From positions 68,386,212-68,450,211 of the forward strand of contig CM069870.1 of the NCBI GenBank assembly GCA_036172665.1: 64,000 nt of DNA, written 5' to 3'. Below are positions 1 through 62,150 of this stretch, piece after piece. The notes beneath the pieces were generated by a model. The model had not been told where the DNA came from and ran no database searches. It saw only the letters and a program-made list of their open reading frames with translations. Positions within the stretch are counted from its first letter, which is position 1. The number at the start of each line of letters is the position of its first letter. The DNA is from Prosopocoilus inquinatus (lineage: Eukaryota; Arthropoda; Insecta; Coleoptera; Lucanidae). Made by a program: the position numbers and the translations under genes.

Positions 1-1530
1 TTTCTGAATACATGCAGAAATATGCTCGGAGAAACGTAAGTTAGTATCAATATATAAGCCCAAATTTTTAACTATTTCAACCGGAGATAATGTAAAGTCG
101 CCAATCTTAACTGAAAAATGATTTTTAATATTTTCTCGAGCCTTCACTGCGCCAAACAAAATAAGTTTCGATTTAGAAGGATTAATGATTAGAGAATGCT
201 TTCTCGAATAATCTAATAACGAAACAAGGTCAGCATTGATATTTTCCATGGCATCGGTAGCATTTTCTGGACGAAAGGAATAAAATAATTGAAGATCATC
301 AGCATAACGATGTACTTGACAGTATCTTAAAACACTAGTGAGATTGCTAGTATATATATTAAATAATAAGGGCCCCAAGATTGAACCTTGAGGTACACCT
401 TGTGATAATTTTAAAACATCAGAAACAGACGAACCGATCATAACTTTTTGCGATCGATTCACAAGAAAGTCTTTAATTAGTTTGACAGCATCGCAAGAAA
501 ACCCAATGTACTTCAGAATAGCCAGTAGAAGACTGTGACTGACAGTGTCAAAAGCTCTAGAGAAATCTATTAATATTAATGCTGTAAGCTTACCAACTTC
601 AATATTTCTAAAAATTTCGTCCGTAATATCACATAATACTGTCGCACAACTGAAGCCAGTCCGAAAGCCGGATTGTCGAGCAGGCAAGATATTATACCTA
701 CTTAAATGAACATTAATTTGTTTATTTATAACTTTCTCTATAACTTTTGACAAACAAGGAAGAATGCTAATAGCACGAAGATCTTAAAAGTTTTGGGGAT
801 GACTTATTTTTGGTAGTGGATGAACTAAGGCAACTTTCCAACAAGATGGAAATTCACTGTTTATCAGACAACGATTTATGATAAATGTGATGTAAGGAAT
901 CAAAAATGGGCAACATATATCGATCATTTTAATATTGAGACCTTCGCTGCTGGTACTTACAGATTTTATGTTTGATAAAATTTTAGAGACTTCCTGTTCT
1001 GAAACTAATTCGAAAAAAAGAAAAGAGTTAAAATTCACTTGATGTTGGTTTTGATAAAAGTTTAAAAGTTCGACATCATCATTAAAAATTGGAATAGAAT
1101 TAATGAAGAAATGGTTAATAGCATTAACATCAGACAAATGATCAGGAATAGTTTTACGTCTATGAGAATAGATATTTAATTCATTAAGTTTGTTCCACAT
1201 GGTTCTCGGAGTTGCATGAGTAAGAGTATAATTAAAATAAGCTTTCTTTTCTTGTCTAACAGCATTGGTGGCCAGATTTCGAAGTGTTTTATAGTATTCC
1301 CAGTGTACAGGCAATTTAGTTTTAGTAAAACGTTTATGCGCATCATCACGTAAAGATATAATTAACTTGATTGTGTCTGTGAGCCAAGGAGGTTTAGGTT
1401 TCGTTATTTTAGATGTAATAAAAGGAGCGTGTATGTCAAATAAGCCTATTATGCACTGATTAAAAAAATCAACCATATCGTTTACATTAGTTAAGTGAAA
1501 AATAATATGCCATGGTAATGCTTCTATCAA
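1..1530 (-). pseudogene. CR1/jockey-like LINE reverse transcriptase fragment, one in-frame stop
   Basis: Reading the minus strand from 1530 gives the linker after the endonuclease (PPWLTDTIK, then a region ending PLPKIS). The same frame continues through the whole reverse transcriptase to the window edge. Seen motifs are SGFRTGF, DFSRAFDTVSH, PQGSILGPLLF and the catalytic RYADD, so the palm is intact. The only break seen is a TAA at 784-786, where related LINEs usually have a serine codon; the frame is unchanged on both sides. The endonuclease and 5' part are missing upstream of 1530, and the 3' end lies outside the window. Such proteins copy the LINE RNA by target-primed reverse transcription. 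The copy is dead because of truncation and the stop. Clade assignment (CR1 versus jockey) is by motif style only. Confidence 0.88.
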
Positions 1531-1535
1531 TCAAA

Positions 1536-2699
1536 TCAACATAACTTAATTCCTTCTTGTCAATCGGGTTTCAGATCGGGTTATGGTACAACTACTGCTT
1601 TATTAAAAGTCACAGACGATATATTCCAGTCAAGAGACATGGGAAAGTTGACAGTCCTTACGTTGCTTGATTATAGTAAGGCGTTCGATATGCTACATCA
1701 CGAAATTTTACTTTTGAAATTAAAGTATTATGGATTTGATTCTACAGTTGTCAAATTCCTTAATAGCTTCTTGACTGATCGACAGCAAAGAGTTATTCTA
1801 AACAACTGTTGTTCGGAATTATCACCCATTCTAAAAAGAGTGCCGCAGGGCTCAATCCTAGGCCCCCTATTATTTTTAATATATACATCCGATTTTCATA
1901 GTTTCTCATTCAACATTGCGAGATTCATCAGTATGCCGACAACACATAATTATACAAATCTTTTTATTTTACCGAAACACTTGAGGCAATTGAAAAAATC
2001 AATGCTGACATTCGTCAACTAATTAAAGTTTCTCAGGTTCGTGGCTTGCATTTAAATTCCAAAAAATCATTTGTTATGGTATTTGGTCCTGATAAAATGA
2101 AACAACGAATTTCGAACGGCGTAAAAATTACCATTAATGGTGACGCTTTGCAATTGGTATCAGAATCCAAAAACTTAGGTCTAATAATTGATACAAATCT
2201 AAGATATAGAAAGCACGTTAGCTCATTAATATAGAACTCGTACTGCGCCCTGAAAAAACTATTTATGAATAAAGACTTTTTAGATACGAAATTAAGGTTA
2301 TTATTAGCTGATGCGTTAATATTATCTAAATTCAGTTTTTGCGATATGGTGTACGGGCCAGCATTAACTTCTCGTGATGCAAACCGATTACAAGTTATCC
2401 AAAATAATTGCATTCGATTTGCTTACGGTCTAAGGCGATGGGATCATGTGTCAAAAAAGTTGGAAGAGGCTGGCTGGTTGACTTTAAAAAAACGTTGGCG
2501 TTTGCACTTAGTAAATCTAACCCATAAACTGTTACTAACCAAATCTTCACCACCGTATTTACGTTATGATTCAATGTTCGAACGGTGGTTTTCCTACAAT
2601 TCTGCAAAATTATATAACACTCTTCCTGATCATCTTAAATTATTGAGCTTTGAGCAATTCAGAATAAAGGTAAAACATTTCTTTTATGCTAAATACTGA
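1536..2699 (+). pseudogene. Second LINE reverse transcriptase fragment, head-to-head with the first
   Basis: The plus strand encodes the reverse transcriptase core of a related but different LINE: SGFRSGYGTTT, LLDYSKAFDMLHH, VPQGSILGPLLF. A frameshift follows near 1925. The active site then reads QYADN, so the second catalytic aspartate is lost and a stop follows soon after. Another in-frame stop lies near 2234. The thumb and C-terminal region continue to a natural-looking stop at 2697-2699, followed at once by AATAAA-like sequence (caataaag), as expected near a LINE 3' end. Because it overlaps the same protein region as the first fragment, the pair is two insertions rather than one copy with a 5' inversion. 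At least three disabling changes make it a pseudogene. Confidence 0.85.
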
Positions 2700-2790
2700 A
2701 CAATAAAGTTTTCTTGTTTATTCGCCCTGAACTTGTTTTCTATATATTATTTGTACTTATTTTTAGTTACTTTACTAGAGGTTAAGAACA

Positions 2791-3287
2791 GCGCTTAGCT
2801 AGAAGATTTGTGTACATAAAGGGAACATACATACAACATAAATATAAATCCCCACCACTGTCAACATTCTATGCTGGATGAACGCATTTTTACAAGTGTG
2901 CCTAAAAGGAATATTGAATATTAGTCTAATTAACTCTTTTTGAATAATAAACACTCTATTTAACTCTACTACACTACCGCAACATACGATATTGTAGGAC
3001 AGGTGACAATAGGCCAAACCGTAGTAAATATGCGTTATAATATCTGTATTATTCGTAGATTTTTTGAGTTGCAACATAGCAAAATACACTGAATTTAGCT
3101 TTTTACAAATATAATCCATGTGAACATCCCAAGACAGATTTATATCAACGTAAATACCCAAAACTTTAACAGATTCAGGAGGTGTTACATGTCTTTTCTG
3201 GAAAACAAATATTTAGTTTTATTTTCATTCATTGTAACTCCATTTCTTGCACACCACTCCCGCATCTCACTATTAAGTTCTTAATAT
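2791..3287 (-). pseudogene. Third LINE reverse transcriptase, C-terminal piece, split by the hAT insertion
   Basis: On the minus strand, this stretch encodes the post-active-site part of a LINE reverse transcriptase: EMREWCARNGVTMNENKTKY, then a segment with GIYVDINLSWDVHM and a thumb region ending in a cysteine- and histidine-containing tail at 2799. The 5' side stops abruptly at 3287, where the hAT transposon begins. The missing upstream part resumes at 12859 on the far side of the transposon, after the 8-bp duplication cttaatat. A one-base frame slip lies close to the insertion point. It is the oldest layer of the nest. Confidence 0.8.
3280..3287. repeat. hAT target-site duplication, left copy
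   Basis: The octamer cttaatat abuts the left terminus of the hAT element and matches the octamer at 12851-12858 exactly. Confidence 0.88.
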
Positions 3288-3850
3288 TAGAGATGTGTCG
3301 TTCGCGAACGAACGGATCCAAATGAACCTTTCCGGCAATCGGAAAGAACGACTGTCGTTCCGAAACGCGCAATAGTTCGTTCCACTTACGGGTCCGGACT
3401 GACGCCGACACAGACAAAATAGCCAGTCGTGAAAGAACTTACAGCTCCTCTTACAATTGAACAGGATCGGGAATCGAGAACGGAACGTGAACGGTATAAT
3501 ATTTATGTAGTTAGCATTACCGGGGTGTTGTGGACTCTCATAAGATTACGCAATGATTTACCTTTTTTATCGTTCTCGTTACCGTTCCTCGGCAATTGCT
3601 GATGGATGATTAAGCGGCAATAATATAACTAAAAACCAAATTCGGCTTGAGACGTTTTGGGCTTGCGGGTTTGTTTGTATTCTAATGTTCTAAATCAGTT
3701 ATTAAACGATAAAAGAATAATAATTCGAGCTCTTCCTACATCTTCTTCTTGTAATTTATAATAATATAAATAAAATATATACAAGAAATGATTTTTTATT
3801 GGTTTCGTTAGTTTTATTGCACGTCAATATGTCAATACAGCTAAAAAAAT

Positions 3851-4090
3851 ATATGTAACGGGTTATTTTTAAAATTATTAATTGGAGTAAGTCATAACTT
3901 CATTTTAGTTTGGCAAATACGGGCAAATACCAGTTTATTGCAATTAAATTAAGATTGAGATGAATGAACCGGGCCTAAAATTTTCTGATTTAAATCAAAA
4001 TTTCGGTTGTCTTTTCAGAATTGTCAACAACTTTTATAAAATCATGGCTTACTCCAATTAAGAATTTTAAAAATGATCCGTTACCTAAAT
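3851..4090. mobile_element. Small foldback MITE inside the hAT
   Basis: Arms of roughly 47 bp at 3851-3900 and 4043-4090 are imperfect reverse complements (both contain aattggagtaag and a gtaacgg-type end) around a spacer of about 140 bp. It has no coding capacity and lies in the noncoding part of the hAT, 3' of the transposase gene. The superfamily is not determined because no clear target duplication was seen. Confidence 0.6.
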
Positions 4091-5195
4091 GCAAGGGTTT
4101 ATGTTAATTTATAACAAAATTCAATTGTTAAAATCCAAATTTTTAGAATATGGGATCTGTAAGACCAACGAATATTTATTTTGTAGACAGCCTGAAAAAT
4201 GTTAAAAATGTTTGCTTTATATTGAAGCTATCTTCAACGAAACGTGACATTTCTAACGTTTTTAACGCTCCCAAATAAACATATCAATTTGTGGTAAAGG
4301 CAACACTGCTTGAATTTTCTGTTAAAAATCAAATTAAAATTAAATTTCATAATAAGATAGCAATACTCAAGAATAAATAAAACTTTATTAATGTTTGAAA
4401 AAACAACAAAATAAACTATTTTTCTTTAACAACGTAGATGCACAGCATACCTTCTTAATAGAACATATTTAAAAAAATACAAATTAATACATATAACAGA
4501 AAAATAAACTATAATTCGTAATAATCTTAGGAACTTTCTAAGTCAAGGCATTGTAGTTAAAAGTTCAGGAACATAAGAATAAACGCGTATTATTAGTAAA
4601 TACTCACACAGATTTAGCAGCGATAGTGCAGTTACAACAACTTAAATAAGAGGATATCAATCACAAATTTTGATTCAAGAATATTATTTCTCTAACTTTT
4701 TTGGAACTTAATCTATTTCTTTTATCGGTTAATATCTGCCCAGTTTTTGAGAAAACACGTTCACAAGGAACTGACGTTGCCATGAGACACAATCCTCTTT
4801 GCACTATTTGAAAAAGCAGAGGATATATTTGAAATCGCTCGTTCCACCGATTTTCGTTTCTAGGTAATAGCGGTTCATTTAAATATTTTTGAAGTTCTAT
4901 TTCTTCAGCTTGACTTAAAACATTCGATACGTATAAGTTTTTAACTTCAATATCAAAGTCGTGCCACAAATTACCTTTATCAGAAACGCTGGGTGATGGG
5001 GATACTTCTTCAATATCCTCAACGTCATTATTCGTATTGATTAATTTTAATTTATTTTTGATTGTTTCCAATCCGGCCTCGAAATTAGCATCTTCTTCGA
5101 AAGCGTACTTTTTAAATCGTGGATCCAATATGGGTGCTTCACAAGTAAATTCAGTTTTTTCTATTGAATCAAATCTTCGTTCAGTGCTGTCTAAC

Positions 5196-5207
5196 ATTAT
5201 TTTTGAC
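5196..5207. repeat. 12-bp target-site duplication of the foldback element, left
   Basis: attatttttgac, identical to 5347-5358 on the other side of the insertion. Confidence 0.85.
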
Positions 5208-5346
5208 GAACAGATAAAATAGCGACACCTTACTATCGCTTTTTGACCTGACATTGCAGTAGCCCCAAGCAGGGCTGAAACAGCTGTCCAGAGGCTGCTC
5301 GAGGTTTTCACTGCAATCAAAAACGATTTGCGCAAAAATTTTTCTA
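5208..5346 (+). mobile_element. Small foldback element, deleted copy, inside the hAT transposase
   Basis: This 139-bp insertion reads gaacagataaaatagcg at one end and caaaaatttttcta at the other. It is the reverse complement of 41231-40932 apart from an internal deletion that removes one arm of the long inverted repeat and the first half of the hammerhead-like core; the deletion joins attgcagtag directly to ccccaagcaggg. It is flanked by the exact 12-bp direct repeat attatttttgac (5196-5207 and 5347-5358), so it arrived as an independent insertion. It retains the second half of the ribozyme-like loop (gggctGAAACagctgtc) but not the CTGANGA part. Confidence 0.82.
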
Positions 5347-5358
5347 ATTATTTTTGAC
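5347..5358. repeat. 12-bp target-site duplication of the foldback element, right
   Basis: attatttttgac, identical to 5196-5207. With one copy and the insertion ignored, the transposase frame is continuous. Confidence 0.85.
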
Positions 5359-7201: not shown

Positions 7202-10200
7202 CTATTCACTGAATGGTTTGAGGTCTTTGATGTGCACGCTTTTAACCGTTTTGCCCGTGGCGTTATCTCTTATCTGGTAGATGACGGGGGAAAGGACTTT
7301 GGTCACTGTATACGGACCGGAAAATTTCGGTGCTAATTTGGCCGCAAATCCTTTACCAGCGCTTGATAATGGGTAGTCCTTCTTCATGACCTGGTCGCCG
7401 AGATGACATCTCCAATCCCTCCTTCTTAAATCGTAATACTTCTTTTGGACTTCGAAAGCTCGGTTTAAATTTAGACGAACTAGCTCGAAAATTTCTGTCA
7501 TTCGTTCTAATCGTTTAATTCGACTGTTGATACCAGCTACTTCGTCCTCAACGGCTTCCTCATGCGCCAAAACTTCCTGGGTTTGGTGCAACTGATTCGG
7601 GATGCGTAGCTCCCTTCCAAAATTTAATAGAGCCGGAGAAAAACCCGTGGAATCATGTTTAGACGTGTTTATGGCTAGCATAAATTCACTTAAATGTTGA
7701 TCCCATTTTCGGTGATTTCCTTCGCAATACTGACCAATCATTTGCTTGATTACCTTATTAGCGCGCTCTACTGGATTCGTCTGTGGGGAGTACGGAGGTG
7801 ATAAACGGTGTTGTATTCCCATATCCTTCAGCATCTGCTTGAACGCTCGGTTAGTAAACTGGGTCCCATTATCCGTGATTAGAACTCGAGGACATCCAAA
7901 TCTTGCTACAATTCGTTCCTTAAAAGCCTGCATTGTCACAGTCGCTGTGGCTTTCCTGAGTGCTTGAAATTCCAGCCACTTGGTAAATCTATCCTGGAAT
8001 ACTATGATGTAACAGTGTCCTTTGACAGAACGAGGTAAGGGTCCAATAAAATCTGCGCTGACGGTTTCCCACGGTTCGCTATTCGGTGCCTTATGCATCT
8101 TACCAGGTAACGGTTGTTGAGATGATTTGTATCGCTGACATGTTAAACAGGAACGTACATACCGAGAGATGTCTTTAAACATTCCTGGCCAATAATAGTT
8201 TTGTTTCACTCGAGCAATTGTCTTGGAAATTCCCAAGTGTCCTGCAGTCGGAACATCGTGATTTTCACACAACACTTGTCGCCTCTCGTCTCTTGGTACA
8301 CACAATTTCCAGGAGTCGGTAATACCTGTGTTGACTACCGGATCGGTTAAAATACGTCGATATAACTTCCCTTCTCTGATGCAAAAATCTTCGAATTGTT
8401 CGGGGTTCTCCTGAACCTGAGTTAATTTCTTCCGGTACCATCTGCACTGCGTCGGATTTTCTTCAGTCACTCCTATATTATCAACGGGTTGACGTGATAA
8501 TATATCGGCCAATTGATTAAGTTTTCCTTTCCTGTAAGCAATTTCGAAATCGAATTGCTGTAAATGCATGATCCATCGTGCTAGACGACCTGTAGGGTTC
8601 GGTAAATTTAATAACCACTTCAAGGACTGATGGTCGCTCTCAACCTTAAAACGATATCCTTCCAGATATACGCGCATTTTCTGTATTCCCCAAACAATCG
8701 CCAGACATTCCTTTTCGGTTGTGGAATAATTTTTCTCCGCCTGAGATAGGGAACGGCTAGCATAAGCGATAACTCGGTTTTCACCTTCTACTTTCTGGAG
8801 TAGTGCTGCGCCGAGTCCATTATTCGATGCATCGGTTTGCAAGATGAATGTTTGAGAGAAGTCGGGGCACATTAAAACTGGTGCTTCTGTAAGTTGTTTC
8901 TTCACTTCAGTAAATGCTTTTTCTTGAGAATCGGTCCACTGCCAGCGTTGAGCTTTTCTTAGCAACCTAGTTAACGGAGCGGTTATTTGCGAAAACAATG
9001 GTACAAACTTTCGATACCACGAAAGAATTCCTATAAATTTACGTAGGTCCTTTACATTGCTTGGTGCTGGTAAGTCCTTGATTGCTTTAATCTTCTCTGG
9101 ATCAGTTTCGATACCTTTTTCTGAAACAACATGTCCCAAATAACGGATGGTTTTTGTGAAAAACTGACATTTTTCCGGGTTCGGTCGGAGTTTCGCTTCG
9201 TATAATTTCTTGAATACAGTTTTTAAGTTCGCCAGGTGCTCTTCAAATGTTCGTCCTAGCACTATGATGTCATCTAAATACGCCAAGGCAACAGATTCCA
9301 TCTCTGGTCCGATAACTGTATCTAATAATCGTTGGAAAGTCGCCGGTGCTGAATGCAACCCAAACGGCATAACTGCAAATTCAAACAGTCCTCTTCCTGG
9401 TACTGTAAAAGCGGTAACTGGTCTGCTGTCTTCGGTTAAAGGAATCTGCCAGTATCCGTGCTTTAAATCTATCGTCGAAAAATATTTAGATCCACGAAGT
9501 TTGTCCAATATATTACTAATGAACGGTAGAGGGTACGCATCTTTTTCTGTTATACGATTAATTTGCCGAAAATCGATGCAAAATCGATATTTGCCGTCCT
9601 TCTTCTTTGTGAGAACAACGGGGGAACTCCACGGACTATGTGACGGGACTATAATTCCATCTTTAAGCATGTTATTTACCTCTTCGTTGACTACATTCAT
9701 TAAGGCGGGGTTTAGCGGTCGGTGTCGCTGTTTAATTGGATTATTCTCCCTAAGCCGAATTTGATGTTCCACTCGTGACGTAGGTCCAGTGATCTGTTGA
9801 AATCGAGCAAATTCCCTACCTAGCATAGTTCTGGCTTGTTCACGTTGGTTCGGCGACATCGTTGGACAAAACTGATAATCAACTTCGGTGGCATTTACTG
9901 GAACAGTTTCTTCTTCTTTACCGAATTCAATTTCTCCGGTCCCCGTTTTCACCGTTACTTGGTTCGCTGCTAGGAAATCCATTCCTAATAAAATATTACT
10001 CGTGAGTTGCGGTAAGCACAAAAATGTTGCTCTTCTCTGAAGTGCGTGAATTCGAAATACCATTTCCATTTCGTACTCGATCTTTACAGTCGCTCCATTT
10101 GCCATTAGTGCCTTCGTAACTTGTTCGCTAATTCTTGGCTCGAATCCGTATTTTCCACAACGCGTGATTGTGTCTCTGCTTATATATGACCGAACGGAAC

Positions 10201-10378
10201 CTGTATCTATTAGTGCTTTAAACGTTTCCTTGCCTATCTCAATATCCAGTTGTAATCGGTTGTCTCTGCTTCTGTCACTAATAAAGGGGATGAAAGTTTC
10301 CGGACATGTTATCGAGGACTTTACTGGTGACGGCTGGCGATGCCTCTGTTCCCAGCCCACTTTGAGTTTCCCTGACAA
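7202..10378 (-). CDS. pol: Gypsy pol polyprotein: protease, reverse transcriptase, RNase H, integrase
   Basis: An open frame of 1058 codons lies in the -1 frame relative to gag. It has no ATG of its own at the start: the first codon is TTG, right after a TAA, so translation by frameshift from gag is expected. In order: aspartic protease with LIDTG (residues 57-60), reverse transcriptase with YLDD (367-370), RNase H with QTDAS (D516), E556 and SDH (D582), integrase zinc-binding HHCC (H707, H714, C744, C747), and the catalytic D776, D836 (TDNGTQF) and E871. An SH3-like tail (KFSGPYTV) ends at 1058. All catalytic residues I can place are present and no break is seen. About 240 nt of noncoding sequence separates it from the 3' LTR. 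Confidence 0.95.
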   Translation of the reverse strand: MSGKLKVGWEQRHRQPSPVKSSITCPETFIPFISDRSRDNRLQLDIEIGKETFKALIDTGSVRSYISRDTITRCGKYGFEPRISEQVTKALMANGATVKIEYEMEMVFRIHALQRRATFLCLPQLTSNILLGMDFLAANQVTVKTGTGEIEFGKEEETVPVNATEVDYQFCPTMSPNQREQARTMLGREFARFQQITGPTSRVEHQIRLRENNPIKQRHRPLNPALMNVVNEEVNNMLKDGIIVPSHSPWSSPVVLTKKKDGKYRFCIDFRQINRITEKDAYPLPFISNILDKLRGSKYFSTIDLKHGYWQIPLTEDSRPVTAFTVPGRGLFEFAVMPFGLHSAPATFQRLLDTVIGPEMESVALAYLDDIIVLGRTFEEHLANLKTVFKKLYEAKLRPNPEKCQFFTKTIRYLGHVVSEKGIETDPEKIKAIKDLPAPSNVKDLRKFIGILSWYRKFVPLFSQITAPLTRLLRKAQRWQWTDSQEKAFTEVKKQLTEAPVLMCPDFSQTFILQTDASNNGLGAALLQKVEGENRVIAYASRSLSQAEKNYSTTEKECLAIVWGIQKMRVYLEGYRFKVESDHQSLKWLLNLPNPTGRLARWIMHLQQFDFEIAYRKGKLNQLADILSRQPVDNIGVTEENPTQCRWYRKKLTQVQENPEQFEDFCIREGKLYRRILTDPVVNTGITDSWKLCVPRDERRQVLCENHDVPTAGHLGISKTIARVKQNYYWPGMFKDISRYVRSCLTCQRYKSSQQPLPGKMHKAPNSEPWETVSADFIGPLPRSVKGHCYIIVFQDRFTKWLEFQALRKATATVTMQAFKERIVARFGCPRVLITDNGTQFTNRAFKQMLKDMGIQHRLSPPYSPQTNPVERANKVIKQMIGQYCEGNHRKWDQHLSEFMLAINTSKHDSTGFSPALLNFGRELRIPNQLHQTQEVLAHEEAVEDEVAGINSRIKRLERMTEIFELVRLNLNRAFEVQKKYYDLRRRDWRCHLGDQVMKKDYPLSSAGKGFAAKLAPKFSGPYTVTKVLSPVIYQIRDNATGKTVKSVHIKDLKPFSE

Positions 10379-11310
10379 TTACAGTCTCTTGATAAAACTC
10401 CTTCTTTTCCACATCTGAAACAGAATAATTTCGGCGGTTGCGTACACTCGGATCTACGATGGCCTGTGTTGCCACATCTCCAGCATTTTTCATGGTTTGT
10501 ATTTGATGTGGTCGGTCGGTTAACTTCCGTATATCTCCTCAACTCTTGCCTTCCTGTTGCCATTTTCCGTGTTTGTTCTTCTTTCTTCGTCACGGCTTTG
10601 AGTTCGGCGTCGAGCTTTTCAAAAGCGTCAATGTGTTGTATTAATTCGGAGATATTAGTAAACGATTCCCTCTTGATATAATAGCGGTATTCCGGTCGTA
10701 GTTGACGATAGATGTTTCGTAACTGTTTCTCTTCCGAATAATCTCCGTGTCGTCTCATCAATGTTTGTAAAGCGATGATATAATCTTTACCTTTTTCGCC
10801 GACACCCTGTACACGACGATTAATTTCAGCTTCCAAGCCCTCTGTATATTCTGGCGGAAAGAAGAAAATCTTGAAATCACGAAGAAAATCAGTCCATCGT
10901 TGCCATGTATCTTTATTGTTCCGATACCACAAATTTGCTTGTCCCTTCAATAATTCCGGTAGGGCACGTAAAACAAGGTCATTTGAAATCGTATATTCTT
11001 TCGTAAGTTCTTCGACCCTTTCTAAGAATAATATTGGATCAGATTTTCCATCGAAAGTTATACTCCACTTACGAATTTGATTCAACATATCCAGGTTGGT
11101 CTGTTTAGGTACAGGTGGCTCAGATGTCACTGTCACACCGTCTCTCAAATATCTTACCAGACGCTTGCGTAAATCTTCTACTTTGCCGTCGGTGTCCAGT
11201 CCGAATTTCCTTAATTCTATTGATAATTCATCTTTCTTGAGCTGATATACCCATCCAACTCGTACGTCGGCAACTTCATTTGCAGCTGCTCCTTCGTCTT
11301 CGATCGGCAT
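10321..11310 (-). CDS. gag: Gypsy gag polyprotein, 329 aa
   Basis: The frame opens with ATG at 11308-11310, just after the primer-binding site, and runs uninterrupted to a stop at 10321. Residues about 20-56 (QLKKDELSIELRKFGLDTDG and a following RLVRYL) look like a SAP-type DNA-binding motif, often seen at the N-terminus of insect Gypsy Gag. Residues about 80-240 resemble the retrotransposon capsid domain (WYRNNKDTWQRWTDFLRDF). Two zinc knuckles follow. The first is canonical (C276, C279, H284, C289). The second has C297, C300 and C310 but valine at the histidine position (305). The end overlaps pol by about 58 nt in the -1 relation. Gag forms the virus-like particle that packages element RNA. 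The frame appears intact. Confidence 0.93.
   Translation of the reverse strand: MPIEDEGAAANEVADVRVGWVYQLKKDELSIELRKFGLDTDGKVEDLRKRLVRYLRDGVTVTSEPPVPKQTNLDMLNQIRKWSITFDGKSDPILFLERVEELTKEYTISNDLVLRALPELLKGQANLWYRNNKDTWQRWTDFLRDFKIFFFPPEYTEGLEAEINRRVQGVGEKGKDYIIALQTLMRRHGDYSEEKQLRNIYRQLRPEYRYYIKRESFTNISELIQHIDAFEKLDAELKAVTKKEEQTRKMATGRQELRRYTEVNRPTTSNTNHEKCWRCGNTGHRRSECTQPPKLFCFRCGKEGVLSRDCNCQGNSKWAGNRGIASRHQ
10366..10372 (-). promoter_or_regulatory. Candidate -1 ribosomal frameshift site at the gag-pol overlap
   Basis: In the gag frame the minus strand reads G GGA AAC, an exact X XXY YYZ slippery heptamer (GGGAAAC), a few codons after the pol frame opens. After an 8-nt spacer (TCAAAGTG) a 6-bp stem GGCTGG/CCAGCC with a 14-nt loop can form. 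Heptamer, spacer and stem match the known layout of -1 frameshift signals. Confidence 0.72.
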
Positions 11311-11333
11311 CTTCTCGGAAAGTCCCTGCTCGC

Positions 11334-11343
11334 TCGGGCGCCA
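11334..11343 (-). promoter_or_regulatory. tRNA primer-binding site, lysine-tRNA type
   Basis: Minus-strand TGGCGCCCGA lies three bases from the inner end of the 5' LTR. These ten bases equal the start of the well-known primer site complementary to the 3' end of a lysine tRNA. The match weakens after them, although a CAGGGAC string follows slightly further on. The leader from LTR to gag start is only 36 nt. Confidence 0.7.
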
Positions 11344-11346
11344 AAA

Positions 11347-12099
11347 TGTAACGGTAGTTCCGGGTTAACTCGGTGGAGAGGTGTATTAAGTCCAGGTTCT
11401 AATATAACAAATAACTATATTTAACACATAATCATTAATAATGCACATGCACGGGTGAAAATAAACAACGTAGCCTCACTAAATGTTTCTTGCCGGGGTC
11501 GGGGTTCTCGCGGACGCTGCGGGGCGGTGTAGACGGACGACTGCGGGGCGGTGTAGACGGACGACGGTGACCACTCTATGCAAGAAACGGGGTTGGTGGG
11601 AAGACCACACCAGAGGGGAAACTACATATTCCGTGGGGGACCGACGGAATATAATAGCACGGGGGACGGACGGCGGTACATACGAGGGGCGGCGGTTCAC
11701 AGGCTACGGATGACCAGTGGCCTGCTTACCCAGAGGGAACGGTGATAACCCGCGGGGGACCGGCGGGTTATATTAGCAAGGAGGCGGTTTACAAGCCGTG
11801 GATGACCTACGACTAGCTCACCAGGACGGGTCGGTCAGTATACTGCGGATAGCCAGCAGAATACCTGGAGGAAGGACGGCAGGATGACCATGCCAGGTAG
11901 GGTTAGGAGTGGACTAAGCGGATGACCAGCGAAGTCAGCGTTCCTCGGCTGTGCTCTCAGTTTTATAACGGTTGGCTCCTCCCATTGGTGACGTCGGTTC
12001 GAAGCGGGGCAGCGCGGACAGACCGCGCGGTCGATGCATCCAGGCGCGAGCCGGTTCAAGCGGTGGGTGAAAGGTCACGCGTAAATATGCTTCATTACA
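11347..12099 (-). repeat. 5' LTR of the Gypsy element (element orientation)
   Basis: A 753-bp LTR bounded by TGTA and TACA, matching 6207-6959 except for one base near its plus-strand start (g at 11362, a at 6222). It holds two back-to-back copies of a 24-bp GC-rich unit at 11517-11564. In element orientation it would carry the promoter that drives gag-pol RNA; no individual promoter element is called. Confidence 0.93.
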
Positions 12100-40845: not shown

Positions 40846-40919
40846 AGAAGATCAGATTAAATATGAACAAATTTCTTATTAGAGATCTCTTGTCTTGTAA
40901 AAAATTTCTTAAAGATAAT

Positions 40920-40931
40920 CCTAATATTATT
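40920..40931. repeat. 12-bp target-site duplication of the foldback element, left
   Basis: cctaatattatt, identical to 41232-41243. Confidence 0.88.
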
Positions 40932-40933
40932 AT

Positions 40934-41090
40934 AGAAAAATTTTGTGCAAATCGTTTTTGATTGCAGTGAGAACCTCGAGCAGCCTCTGGACAGCTGTTT
41001 CAGCCCTGCTTGGGGCTTCTTCAGCAGAAACGTCCAGAGGCTGCTCGAGGTTCTCACTGCAATCAAAAACGATTTGCACAAAATTTTTCT
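40934..41090. repeat. Perfect 59-bp inverted repeat of the foldback element
   Basis: Arms 40934-40992 and 41032-41090 are exact reverse complements (for example ctcgagcagcctctggac against gtccagaggctgctcgag). The transcript would form a long hairpin with the hammerhead-like loop at its tip. Confidence 0.92.
40984..41030 (-). ncRNA. Hammerhead-like motif in the foldback element
   Basis: Minus strand: TTTCTG (41030-41025), CTGAAGA (41024-41018, fits CTGANGA), stem II AGCCC/GGGCT (41017-41013 with 41006-41002), GAAA (41001-40998), palindromic stem III ACAGCTGT (40998-40991), C at the cleavage position (40990), and CAGAGG (40989-40984), which pairs with TTTCTG through four Watson-Crick and two G-U pairs. 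The layout equals the small dimer-type hammerheads of Penelope-like elements. It competes with the longer 59-bp inverted-repeat stem, so activity is uncertain. Confidence 0.6.
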
Positions 41091-41231
41091 AAAATGTTTC
41101 ATTATGCTTTGACAGCAAGCATGGCCGCCTTGCATGGGGGACTCATTAGGAGCAAATCCCGCTTCAATTTGTCTATCCTACTGCAATGTTAGGTCAAAAA
41201 GCGATAGTAAGATGTCGCTATTTTATATGTT

Positions 41232-41243
41232 CCTAATATTATT
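41232..41243. repeat. 12-bp target-site duplication of the foldback element, right
   Basis: cctaatattatt, identical to 40920-40931. With the insertion and one copy ignored, the reverse transcriptase frame is continuous. Confidence 0.88.
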
Positions 41244-42540
41244 GTTACTACAGTTGATAAAAGCAATGTAACTGTTTTAATTGATAAAACTGATTATTTT
41301 TCAAAAGTTCAAACTATGCTGTCTGATAATAATACATATGTAGAATTAGCTAATGATCCCACCGAATCTTATCAACGTAAAACTTTCGGTATTATTAGTA
41401 AGATTGAAAAATCCGTTGAAATTAGTAATATTGTTGCTAAATCTCTTGAAGTACAACATCCCATATTTCCTAAATTATACTGCATTCCAAAAATTCATAA
41501 CCCTAATACACCTCTTCGTCCTATAGTTTCCACTATTGGTTCTTCTCCATATTTCCTATCTAAATTTATTTCAAAAATCATTACTCAGGTTACTAGTAAA
41601 TCAGAATATTTTATAAAAAATTCTTTTGAACTCTTGAAAAATTAAAACAAATAACTGTACCAAATAATTGCATTATAATTTCTTTAGATGTTATTTCTTT
41701 ATTTACTAACATTCCTAAAGATTTAGCTTTAAAAAGTATTAATGATAGGTGGTTAGAGATTAAAGATTTTACTGATATTTCCAAAGGTAACTTTTTAGAT
41801 ATAGTTGATTTATGTTTTGAAACATCTTATTTTGCTTTCAATGATAAATTTTATAAACAGATTTTTGGTACAGCAATGGGTTCTCCTTTATCTCCGGCTT
41901 TAGCTGAAATTGTCATGCAAGAACTAGAAAAATCTGTTATTAACTCTTTATCATTCGATTTACCGTTATATTTTCGTTATGTGGATGACATTATATTGAT
42001 TTTGCCTTCTGATAAGGTAGATTTTGTTTTAAATAAATTTAATTCTTTTCATAATAGATTTCAATTTACAGTAGAAAAAGAAAGTAATAATAATTCATTG
42101 AGTTTTCTTGATGTAAATATTATCAGGCAGAATGATAAATCAATTACTAATTGGTTTCATAAACCTACCTGGTCAGGTAGGTACATAAATTTTCACTCGT
42201 ACACTCCCAAAAATTATAAAATTGGAACTATTATTTCATTAACAGATCGAGCTATATTATTTTCTGATAAAGTTTTCATTTATGATAACTTAAATTTAAT
42301 AAAGAAAACTCTTATTCAAAATTCTTATCCAATAAATCTTATTGAATCAGTAATTAAAAATCGTATTAAATACTTACAAAATTCAAATGTCTCTAATAAC
42401 ATTAGACAAACTTCGAACCATAAATACATATCTTTGCCTTATATTGAACCATTACACAATACATTTAAACACATTTTCAAAAAACAAAATTTAATTTTAG
42501 CCAGTAAATCTGTGAATAATTTAAATTAAATTTTTTCGAA

Positions 42541-42990
42541 TTTAAAAACCAAAATACCGAAATTAAAACAACCTAACGTGGTTTATGAAATCATATGTTC
42601 AAATTGTAATTCTGTTTATATAGGTGAAACGAGCCAAAATAAAAAAAAAAACGTTTAGACCAACATAAATATCATATTCAAAAAAATAATCAAAATCATT
42701 CAATGCTTGTAGAGCATTCATTAGTAAATAATCAGAATTTTGATTTTGATAATACTCACATTTTGTACAGTGAATCTAATATTTTTAAAAGACGTTTCAT
42801 AGAAATGTGTAAAATTAAAATGTCTCCAAATTCTATTAATAAACGTACGGACGAACAGGATATAGATCTGTCAATTAATTATATTAAAAAAAAAAAAATT
42901 AGTTTTAATTTGGTTATAGTTACTTTTCTCTTTATTCCGGACAACTCGTATTTTAGTTTAAAATCATGTTACCTTTTCGTTTCTCTTGAC
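42541..42990 (+). pseudogene. GIY-YIG endonuclease domain of the Penelope-like element
   Basis: The domain begins VVYEIICSNCNSVYIGETSQ, a GIY-YIG signature in the form VYE...VYIG with the CX2C pair usual for this group. It continues in another frame after an A-run at 42641-42651 with RLDQHKYHI, then HSMLVEHSL and the catalytic-helix glutamate region ESNIFKRRFIEM, ending in NKRTDEQD. It is joined to the reverse transcriptase upstream across a second frame change near 42530. It nicks target DNA to prime insertion. The frame change in the A-run is typical of slippage decay. Confidence 0.85.
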
Positions 42991-43029
42991 GCCTTGTTTC
43001 TCTTGATAACTTGTTTATTTACTTTTTTT

Positions 43030-43071
43030 CACTCCTGACGAAGCTATAAATCTATAGCGAAACGTTGAGTG
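43030..43071 (+). ncRNA. Hammerhead ribozyme motif of the Penelope-like element
   Basis: Reading order: stem I CACTC (43030-43034), core CTGACGA (43035-43041), stem II GCTATA/TATAGC (43043-43048 with 43053-43058), GAAA (43059-43062), palindromic stem III ACGT (43062-43065), cleavage-site T (43066), and stem I partner GAGTG (43067-43071). One extra A (43042) sits between the core and stem II. Penelope-like elements are known to carry such small hammerheads with very short palindromic stem III that work as dimers. The stop codon of the overlapping frame (TGA, 43036-43038) lies inside the core. Confidence 0.78.
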
Positions 43072-59400: not shown

Positions 59401-61324
59401 CTAGACGCCCCGAGCCCACAGCTGTAACAATATAATAATCAGGATCGGAAACTCGGTCAACTGATACAGCGATACCAAGGCCGAAAAACAAGTAAAACAA
59501 AAACCATGAAGAAAAATAAAACTTGAGGGAGAGTCAACCACGACTAAAAGCCTGTGAGGAATAGGAAACGGAGGTCGTAAAAAAACGGCACAAAAAAACA
59601 GCGAACACGGGGACTTGCCTGGGTCAAACATTTGACTGGCGACAACCAAAGTGAGTGCAAATCGCTTAAACGGTCGACTATAACAACATTATGAATCAGT
59701 TTCAATGATGGCCGTCTGATTCAACCGAATAGATTGCAAGGAGCGAACGATAGTTCGAGCTGCGACAAGATGGAAACGAAACGGCCCCCGTTACTTTACA
59801 AGTTACAAATCCACACTTGTTTTACAATTTGAGAACGAATGCATTAATCCATAGCGTTAGAGGCGATATAATTTGCGAGATAAACAAAACGAAATAAAAA
59901 CCTCGCTTTGCTAAACAGGACTGCGACGGAAAAAACTATTTTTATTTTATTACCGCAAGCAAAAAAGCAACCATAGTCGAAGAAAAAACCTAACGCCTTA
60001 AATGGAAAAAATTAGAGCATAAACAGCCACTGATCCAAACCAAATCGACTGGCCTGTTTCGTAACCCTCAACTACCACATGAAAGCTGTTAGTTAAACAT
60101 GTTTCGTACAAAATGCACTCTCCACAAGGTGTGTGCGTGTGTTCTCTGAATGTTCGGGCCTGAAGAAAGTCAATTCTTGTCAATGAACGAGAGTTCGAGT
60201 TGCGGCAAGGTGGAAAGCAAACGGCCCCTGTTACATAAGATGAAGACATAAAGAATTATTGCATCAATGAAAGAGGAGTTGCCGTAAACGCCCGCGAATA
60301 AAATTAAAGAGCAAAGCTCGTGAGAATATTACCATGCAATCGAGAGCATAGTAAAAAAAGCAATAAATGTTGATAATATACTAAGAACAAAAGCATCGTC
60401 TAGGTTTACAGTCCAGACTTGTTTTATACAATTCTGTAAACTGAAAATACTGTAAACTTAGGCAATAAGGGACGACACTATTTGCGAAGTAAACAATACG
60501 ATATAAAAACCTGGCTGTCCTAAACAAGATTGCCACGAGAAAAACTATTTTTATTATAAACAGGATTGCGATGAAAAAAATATTTTTATTCTGAACAGGA
60601 TTGCGACGAAAAAAACTATTTTTATTTAATTAGTGCCCCCAAAAAGCAGCAACCTTAGTCGGCGTCGTAGAAACCATGTAGCGCGGCTGCACAGGAATTA
60701 AACCGACTCTGCTAGCGAGCGACGTTGGGAGACAATTTTTGCACTGTAGAGGGTGTGTCGAAACAAAAGGGGAAAACAAACTGTAACACGACTTTAAGGT
60801 GTCAGCTCTGAAATTGAAGTTAACCACGATTAAAAGATTGTGAGGAATAGGAGACGGAGGTCGTAAACAAATGGCGCAAAAAACAGCGAACACAGGATCT
60901 TACCTGGGCCAAACGTTTGATTGGCGAAAACCAAAGTGAGGAAAATTGCTTGAATGAGCGACTTTAACAACGTTGTGAATCAGGTCCAAAAGCGATAATA
61001 ATGTTCCTGTTACATTAGAGTAAGACAAAAAGAATTGCACCAAATAAAGGCGAGCTGACATAAACGCCCGCAAAGGAAAATAAACAGCAAAACTCAAGTG
61101 ATTATTGCCATGCAACGTTCGACTGGCAACAGAAAAGAGCAATAAACTCTAAAACGAAACATCCCGAAAACAAAGGTGTCGTCTAGGTTTACAACAAGTC
61201 CAGAGTTGTTTTACAATTAGAGAATGCATAATTCCATAGCGTTCCTACGGAATAATACCGTAAACTTTGGCAATAAGAGGCCGTATGATTTGTGAAATAA
61301 ACAAATGAAATAAACATCTCGTTT
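59401..61324 (-). repeat. Higher-order repeat of about 1.28 kb with intron-like module
   Basis: Copies begin near 59520 and 60805. Shared minus-strand features are CCCAG|GYAAG (59618 with GC donor, 60903 with GT donor), tacgacctccgt, CTATTCCTCACAR and then GCTTTTAGT (59552) or its decayed form (60837). The 59618-59552 intron-like stretch is 67 nt. Between copies are A-rich blocks that carry 36-bp minisatellite units (one near 59919, three at 60518-60632). Confidence 0.75.
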
Positions 61325-61755
61325 TGCTAAACAGGATTGCCGCGAAAAAAACTATATTTATTCTAAATAGGATTGCGACGAAAAAAACTATAATCATTCC
61401 AAACAGGATTGCGACGAAAAAAACTATAATCACTCTAAACAGGATTGCGACGAAAAAAACTATAATCACTCTAAACAGGATTGCGACGAAAAAAACTATA
61501 ATCATTCCAAACAGGATTGCGACGAAGAAAACTAAATTTATTCTAAACAGGATTGCGACGAAGAAAACTAAATTCATTCTAAACAGTATTGCGACGAAAA
61601 AAACTATATTCATTCTAAACAGGATTGCGACGAAAAAAACTATAATCATTCCAAACAGGATTGCGACGAAAAAAACTAAATTCATTCTAAACAGGATTGC
61701 GACGAAAAAAACTATATTCATTTTGAACAGGATTGCGACGAAAAAAAACTATTTT
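61325..61755. repeat. 36-bp minisatellite, 12 units
   Basis: Twelve copies of aacaggattgcgacgaaaaa plus an actataatcattc-type tail. The 36-bp length is a multiple of three, so both strands stay open (NRIATKKT on plus, FFVAILF on minus). Neither is a gene. Single and triple units of the same repeat occur upstream. Confidence 0.93.
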
Positions 61756-61795
61756 TATTTTATTACCGACCGAAAAACGACGAAAAAACCTTGCA

Positions 61796-62150
61796 GCCAG
61801 GGTTGCCATACGTCCCGTATATACGGGACTGTCACCGTATTTCACTACCCGGTCCCATCATACAATTCGTCCTGTTTTTGAGTCCCGTTTTCTACCTAAA
61901 CTTTGCATGAAGGAATGAATGGTTGGTGCGACTCGGCGTTTTTTTTTTTACAAATCAAAAATCATGTCTAAGAAAGTTATGCGAATAACATATTTGCCAT
62001 TCCGGCGCACAATGCAAATGTGGAGAAAATATTTTCCTTAATGGTAACTCAATGGGCCGATAAAAGAACTAGATTGTCAATAGAGACAATTGAAGCTATA
62101 TTGATTTGTCATTACAATTTGAAAATGGCTTGTACCGTTTTTATAATTAT
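61796..62150 (+). mobile_element. Fragment of a second hAT family, copy 1
   Basis: It starts CAGGGTTGCCATACGTCCCG, a common hAT end, and continues palindromically (cccgtatatacggg). At 61987-62145 the frame AHNANVEKIFSLMVTQWADK, then RTRLSIETIEAILICHYNL, is the C-terminal dimerisation tail of a hAT transposase. The rest of the transposase and the other terminus are missing, and the copy ends where the 306-bp-unit sequence resumes. Confidence 0.82.

Follow-up and report, generated by a model that had tools for sequence, protein, structure and literature searches.

Two insertions in a 64,000-nt stretch of Prosopocoilus inquinatus DNA (contig CM069870.1, positions 68,386,212 to 68,450,211; hereafter the window) probably represent one family of metazoan-type retrozymes, which would be mobilised by the enzyme of a Penelope-like element (PLE) via reverse transcription that would be primed at the target, on either side of a single staggered cut. 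This reading is favoured because the outer ends of the insertions lie at two fixed places, S1 and S2, of a 312-nt unit, with target duplications of 12-14 bp and a head-to-head layout; because microhomology at the inner joints and matches between target and unit both exceed chance; because the PLE resident in the same genome has the same layout and the same order of parts, and the two elements have inserted into each other; and because the 11 fixed positions of the hammerhead are constrained. A published PLE has also been described to cut and extend both target strands and to use two internal start sites (PMC11167929), which is a further reason for it.

Two insertions in the window

Copies A (40932-41231) and B (5208-5346) are two separate insertions, each with an exact 12-bp target-site duplication, as the preliminary description of this DNA had already noted for both. 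Copy A interrupts a PLE copy with a broken frame (40863-43038, plus strand) and is flanked on the left (40920-40931) and on the right (41232-41243) by exact copies of CCTAATATTATT. It is composed of a left piece on the minus strand (40932-41033), which runs from about unit position 57 to 1 and then from 312 to 269, and a right piece on the plus strand (41032-41231), which covers unit positions 310-312 followed by 1-197. The outer end is of the S1 type on the left and of the S2 type on the right, and the GT at 41032-41033 can be assigned to either piece, constituting a microhomology of 2 nt. The inverted repeat previously reported in A is present and perfect, although its length is 60 bp rather than 59 bp: the left arm (40933-40992, plus strand) and the right arm (41032-41091, minus strand) correspond to the overlap between both pieces. 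On the minus strand of A, the hammerhead-like loop seen earlier corresponds to the sequence of a type I hammerhead (40984-41030), with the CTGAAGA core, stem II of AGCCC/GGGCT, GAAA and stem III of AC(AGCT)GT, and the cut is predicted to fall after GTC, between minus-strand positions 40990 and 40989. Copy A had been regarded as a foldback element. Its 60-bp palindrome is instead the meeting point of two separately made pieces of the 312-nt repeat, and the foldback reading is rejected because this meeting point varies from copy to copy.

Copy B lies in a hAT transposase gene between exact copies of ATTATTTTTGAC at 5196-5207 and 5347-5358. The left piece (5208-5262, minus strand) extends from unit position 198 to 144 with S2 as the outer end; the right piece (5261-5346, plus strand) covers unit positions 285-312 followed by 1-57 with S1 as the outer end, and it is devoid of the CTGAAGA half of the hammerhead. 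The AG at 5261-5262 is assignable to either piece. The earlier view that B is a 139-bp deleted copy of A is ruled out by the mapping of these two pieces on the unit; B is a separate insertion built from two shorter pieces. The claimed continuity of both interrupted frames was borne out, in that neither the frame of the PLE (..KKFLKDNPNIIVTTVDKSNVTVLIDKTDYF..) nor that of the hAT transposase (..MSKIMLDSTERRFDSIEKTEFTCEAPILDPRFKK..) is interrupted by a stop once the insertion and one copy of the duplication are omitted.

There are some other features in the window. Two overlapping long open frames on the minus strand (7202-10378 and 10321-11364) look pol- and gag-like, of the Ty3/gypsy type, as judged by eye from the translation. 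At 61245-61881, open frames on both strands encode a short repeated peptide (FFVAILFRMN..., NRIATKKT...), forming a coding-looking minisatellite.

A 312-nt hammerhead repeat

The genome (649.6 Mb in 173 contigs) was searched with copy A as the query, which yielded at least 110 matching pieces including A itself in the 40 scored places among 232 candidate places, too many for a chance resemblance. The 40 scored places were taken with their flanks, 20 of them as 10-kb pieces, and most of the examined copies were obtained by this search with A. The two inserts with exact duplications and the matching genomic pieces agree with the initial proposal of a mobile family separate from either interrupted gene. 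Head-to-tail arrays of the 312-bp unit are found at several loci (e.g., L055, L061 and L063), and the unit is numbered here from the predicted ribozyme cut (CAGAGG...GCTGTC). It has a G+C content of 43% and no LTR. The longest stop-to-stop stretch of the repeated unit is 103 aa, and a coding piece for a reverse transcriptase or a GIY-YIG endonuclease was found between units in none of the 41 insertions that were cut out, consistent with the non-coding nature assigned to the family at the outset.

The unit contains CTGAAGA, a five-pair stem II, GAAA, and AC(AGCT)GT followed by C, features which we take to be those of a type I hammerhead according to its general consensus and which are consistent with the alignment to the Rfam model RF00163. 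The copy of the core in L049 was aligned over model positions 1-45 of 45 with 23.8 bits (E 4.8e-4 in a search of 121 bases). This score falls short of the 34 bits set as the curated cut-off, a point that counts against the retrozyme reading. No match of the window to Rfam reached any curated cut-off; matches of its palindromes to Rfam microRNAs, every one under its cut-off, were taken as chance and discarded. In the genome, 10,888 exact occurrences of the 38-nt hammerhead core were counted, vs 0 in a backward control, and no match to it was found in a prokaryote collection.

Among 74 copies, 3 changes in 814 cells were counted at the 11 fixed positions of the hammerhead core, and N7 and H17, which are free to vary, had 20 changes in 148 cells, of which 19 were to letters allowed there; the remaining 49 compared columns had 101 changes in 3,584 cells. 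When N7 and H17 are included, the core varies as much as the positions around it (0.024 vs 0.026), which again counts against the reading, as does the weak covariation that an alignment of 15 units showed for the unit (2 of 89 pairs). Covariation was not found in the hammerhead motif. The 15-unit alignment yields a fold similar to the predicted fold of the unit, in which S1 and S2 are placed in two single-stranded stretches flanking a group of hairpins, with predicted unpaired probabilities of 0.60 and 0.74, respectively, vs 0.34 overall.

Ends, duplications and joints of the insertions

The 41 cut-out insertions were mapped on six copies of the unit. They consist mostly of one minus-sense piece followed by one plus-sense piece, arranged head to head. 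When copies from the genome were tested for target duplications, a border repeat of at least 9 bp was found in 33 of 49 candidate insertions vs 31 of 579 mismatched pairs of left and right borders. The ends were typed in 30 of these 33 insertions, leaving out the segmental copies L014 and L038 and also L059 (9 bp). One outer end is located at unit positions 49-61 (S1, around 57) and the other at 190-201 (S2, around 197), both pointing outward, in 27 of the 30, while an S1/S1 or S2/S2 insertion was never found (0/30); the remaining three are a composite array (L063) and two insertions with one typed end (L044 and L045). The block list of all 41 insertions gave a similar picture: one end of each type in 32, one typed end in 7, none in 2, and two alike in 0. 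The duplication is 12, 13 and 14 bp long in 14, 8 and 4 insertions, respectively (26 of the 30), with 85% A+T, and these lengths are compatible with a constant 12 bp plus chance extension. Within L063 (3173-5130), TTAAATTTAAC is repeated between successive retrozyme pieces, as if one 12-bp target had been reused.

Orientation was also surveyed in a sample independent of similarity to A, the first 100 listed of the 10,888 exact hammerhead cores. Thirty pairs of neighbours in this sample are less than 2 kb apart, 21 of them head-to-head, 9 same-sense and 0 tail-to-tail, and same-sense neighbours are spaced by 309-312 or 624 bp.

Transposase-driven movement of a DNA transposon, of the foldback or MITE type, would fit the long inverted repeat of A and the near-constant length of the duplications. 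It is scarcely credible, however, for these insertions: S1 and S2 are different sequences rather than inverted copies of each other, the inserts vary in length from 96 to 1,922 bp (30 duplication-flanked insertions), and the inverted arms are internal and variable between copies. The unlike ends and the moving joint rule this candidate out.

The inner joints are informative about how the two pieces were brought together. Microhomology was counted at 25 of 34 joints, leaving out eight with filler or a third piece and one paralogue (L057); its mean is 2.12 nt vs 0.70 nt in a simulation of random joints, with 0 of 20,000 draws as high. At most joints, the positions in the unit at which the two pieces end are unrelated, and the pieces have 0-7 nt in common. 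Where an insertion borders its target, the target sequence matches the unit past the start point by 1.65 nt on average, vs 0.44 nt with shuffled targets (0 of 5,000 as high), and when this extension is taken into account, 14 of 27 S2 ends are exactly at 197. The extra match suggests short pairing between the target primer and the RNA at both starts. Inner cDNA ends are clustered at unit positions 310-312 (L031, L049b, L058b, L064, L068, L012 and copy A), and A and L049b are identical in both joint positions (269 and 310). The cluster is one to three bases past the predicted cut at unit position 1, which counts against the proposed reading, and the possibility that right-hand pieces start exactly at the ribozyme cut is not supported by these ends at 310-312.

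The joints also bear on snap-back synthesis, in which one target-primed cDNA would fold back and prime on itself to produce the inverted half. Such self-priming has been proposed for the inverted repeats of rotifer Penelope elements on the basis of palindromes at inverted joints (PMC3846280). The 60-bp palindrome of A would be accommodated by this explanation, and so would L069, a PLE insertion with a nearly perfect inverted repeat over 985-4165 and hardly any spacer. Snap-back predicts, however, the same unit position at both outer ends, which differ in 27 of 30 insertions and are alike in 0, and it does not expect the pieces to stop at unrelated positions as they do at most joints. A perfect inverted arm is to be expected anyway where two cDNAs cover a common stretch of the unit. 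We consider snap-back quite unlikely as the source of these insertions.

Twin priming by a LINE-type reverse transcriptase, where the second target end invades the RNA to give an inverted 5' part, likewise generates head-to-head insertions with target duplications. In LINE-1 twin priming, each target end primes a cDNA and the head-to-head joint carries microhomology, as proposed here; it accounts for only a minority of LINE-1 insertions, with variable inner priming places and a 3'-terminal start, whereas the present insertions follow the arrangement as a rule, with two starts that are both fixed and internal and with neither poly(A) nor a simple-repeat end. The same ends are seen in the resident PLE, which is not a LINE. 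A LINE-type enzyme is a very improbable agent here.

The resident Penelope-like element

The protein piece encoded at 41630-42529 of the PLE in the window matches an abundant PLE family of the same genome, and its nearest named relatives come from bees, ants, beetles and mosquitoes. A first look gave 4,291 candidates for this resident PLE; the 131 scored among these are 96-100% identical and have open frames of up to 845 aa. Neighbours less than 10 kb apart among these 131 of 4,291 candidates comprise 25 head-to-head, 7 + 7 same-sense and 0 tail-to-tail pairs. The borders of 12 PLE insertions were read by eye, L069 as a whole and the rest by their ends; since the 12 were chosen as head-to-head pairs, the independent evidence from them consists of the end types and the duplications only. 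The short end is in or just past AAACTTTCTA and the tail end about 35 nt further at AACTTCAAT in 12 of 12, and flanking repeats of 10-13 bp accompany all 12.

The surroundings of some of these PLE copies are of interest in themselves. L069 is inserted inside a tandem satellite of about 243 bp (1-985 and 4192-5201). Long PLE arrays with open frames of 838 aa and copies about 2.8 kb apart are present at G000:C3:41905187-41934495 and G000:C9:18125454-18138850; in both, the left side is minus-sense and the right side plus-sense.

The PLE has its own minimal hammerhead-like motif, CTGACGAAGCTATAAATCTATAGCGAAACGTT (window 43036-43067, plus strand), which is found in L069 at 4076 (plus) and 1074 (minus). 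The copy of the PLE end and motif in L069 gave no match to Rfam at E 1 or better. As measured on L069, the S1-type end is 61 nt from the GAAA of the motif and the S2-type end is 35 nt beyond. The order of parts is shared with the retrozyme, namely the motif, 61 nt (PLE) or 69 nt (retrozyme), S1, 35 or 140 nt, and S2, and this similar spacing after the hammerhead is the one nameable feature common to the retrozyme and PLE RNAs. The spacing between S1 and S2, 140 nt in the retrozyme vs 35 nt in the PLE, counts against a common mover, as does the absence of significant sequence similarity between the unit and the PLE end. The two elements have been inserted into each other: the PLE array at C9:18125454-18138850 (L088/L089) is inside a retrozyme copy, at its S2 region, and in L071 a retrozyme S2 end starts directly after the duplication of a PLE insertion.

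Alternatively, a different PLE family of the genome might have this unit as its pseudo-LTR, with the copies being PLE derivatives without the coding part. The order of hammerhead, S1 and S2 is as in the resident PLE, hammerhead motifs are known in PLE pseudo-LTRs (PMC7761336), and PLE coding sequence is found within 450 bp of 5 of 42 insertions. The last number is at the same time far from what copies that were mostly the terminal repeat of a PLE, the outcome considered damaging in the preliminary description, would give. The examined copies join unit to unit with coding sequence absent between them, and a comparison of the unit with the repeat end of the abundant PLE gave no significant similarity (best blastn E 0.36, with the 120-bp end and the doubled unit), by which a fragment of the resident PLE is ruled out. 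In addition, the two-pair stem III of the unit, with its palindromic tetraloop, has the form described for invertebrate retrozymes (PMC7229834), while PLE motifs are described as minimal. Derivation from another PLE family is, in our estimation, unlikely.

Proposed mechanism

According to the reading that a PLE enzyme moves the retrozyme, 312-nt, non-coding hammerhead repeats without enzymes of their own would be transcribed as multimers, the type I hammerhead would cleave these into 312-nt monomers, and the monomers may be closed into circles. The PLE enzyme would then cut both strands of an AT-rich target 12 bp apart, and each target 3' end would prime a cDNA on the retrozyme RNA, one at S1 (around 57) and one at S2 (around 197), presumably aided by one to three paired bases. 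Both cDNAs would proceed in the same sense along the RNA over 0.2 to about 3 units. A microhomology of a few bases would then serve to join their free ends head to head, possibly by end-joining repair, and gap filling would leave the 12-bp duplication. Two cDNAs, one per strand, with two fixed starts and a microhomology joint would give head-to-head inserts with unlike ends, and would explain the constant duplications together with the variable inner palindrome. The suggestion of a Penelope-type source of mobility has gained from the end anatomy, the duplication length and the mutual insertion; as to the agent itself, it is from the common rules and the mutual insertion of the two elements that we infer the PLE enzyme.

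A wider proposition can be formulated, for which we see about equal reason to believe and to doubt. Penelope-type integration may regularly prime two cDNAs, one per strand of a 12-bp staggered cut, and assign a different start site of the template to each target end; an enzyme dimer whose halves both sit on one RNA, circular or multimeric, with S1 and S2 close together, might be responsible. The retrozyme would then be a satellite RNA parasite that copies the landing signals only, with more than 10,000 hammerhead copies. If this is true, the inverted repeats of Penelope elements and their one-sided tail would be direct products of two-cDNA priming.

Comparison with known systems

Retrozymes, inverted PLE copies and internal initiation are already known. 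The layout had at first been thought to belong to no named family; much of it is matched by metazoan non-LTR retrozymes, which have been described as 150-450 bp long, tandemly repeated and equipped with type I hammerheads, PLEs being strong candidates for their movers (Cervera and de la Pena, 2020, PMC7229834). The proposal that PLEs move them is based on common ribozymes, tandem copies and co-occurrence, and retrozyme-like repeats have been reported in insects (PMC7229834). The present family resembles them in a unit of 312 bp within this range, which is tandem and non-coding without LTR or enzyme; in a complete type I hammerhead sequence with a conserved core, scored by RF00163 below the cut-off; in the two-pair stem III with a palindromic tetraloop and a G+C content under 50%; and in target duplications longer than 4 bp, which are 12-14 bp here in 26 of 26. 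On the other hand, the parts of that report consulted here describe no head-to-head arrangement, S1/S2 rule, constant 12-bp duplications or insertion of retrozyme and PLE into each other, and the word 'inverted' has 0 occurrences in its text (PMC7229834). W-elements of Schistosoma are also satellite-like repeats with functional hammerheads and hints of mobility, whereas neither a fixed end pair nor a PLE partner is described for them in the portion of the source available to us (PMC8490949). The full insertion signature of a PLE on a retrozyme was not found in the open-licence literature searched, where neither retrozymes arranged head to head nor a fixed end pair were reported in the titles and abstracts of the papers listed.

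In its insertions, the family resembles endonuclease-bearing PLEs. With the purified PLE protein of Anolis, both strands of the target are cleaved and then extended (Frangieh et al., 2024, PMC11167929), and reverse transcription starts from two internal sites that bound the tail seen in genomic copies (PMC11167929). Copies of rotifer PLEs end in inverted pseudo-LTRs and are mostly head to head (Arkhipova et al., 2013, PMC3846280), with a tail optionally present on one inverted repeat and with duplications of 8-10 bp (PMC3846280). The retrozyme is similar to these elements in the head-to-head copies, target duplications and one-sided tail (PMC3846280, PMC11167929), as well as in the hammerhead upstream of the starts, the two internal initiation sites and the AT-rich targets. 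It differs from them in having neither reverse transcriptase nor endonuclease, and in that the position of the 31-35-nt tail is taken by a stretch of 140 nt, without significant similarity to the repeat of the resident PLE. One short end and one tail end are combined in 27 of 30 retrozyme insertions and in 12 of 12 insertions of the resident PLE.

PLEs had been candidates for the enzyme that moves animal retrozymes; here, the insertion products bear the signature of a PLE beside an abundant PLE. With this signature and a very abundant PLE in one genome, the question of the mover becomes directly testable. That both elements combine one S1 with one S2 end would account simply for the long-noted inverted repeats and one-sided tails of Penelope elements, and from this rule both RNA start points can be predicted with a precision of a few bases.
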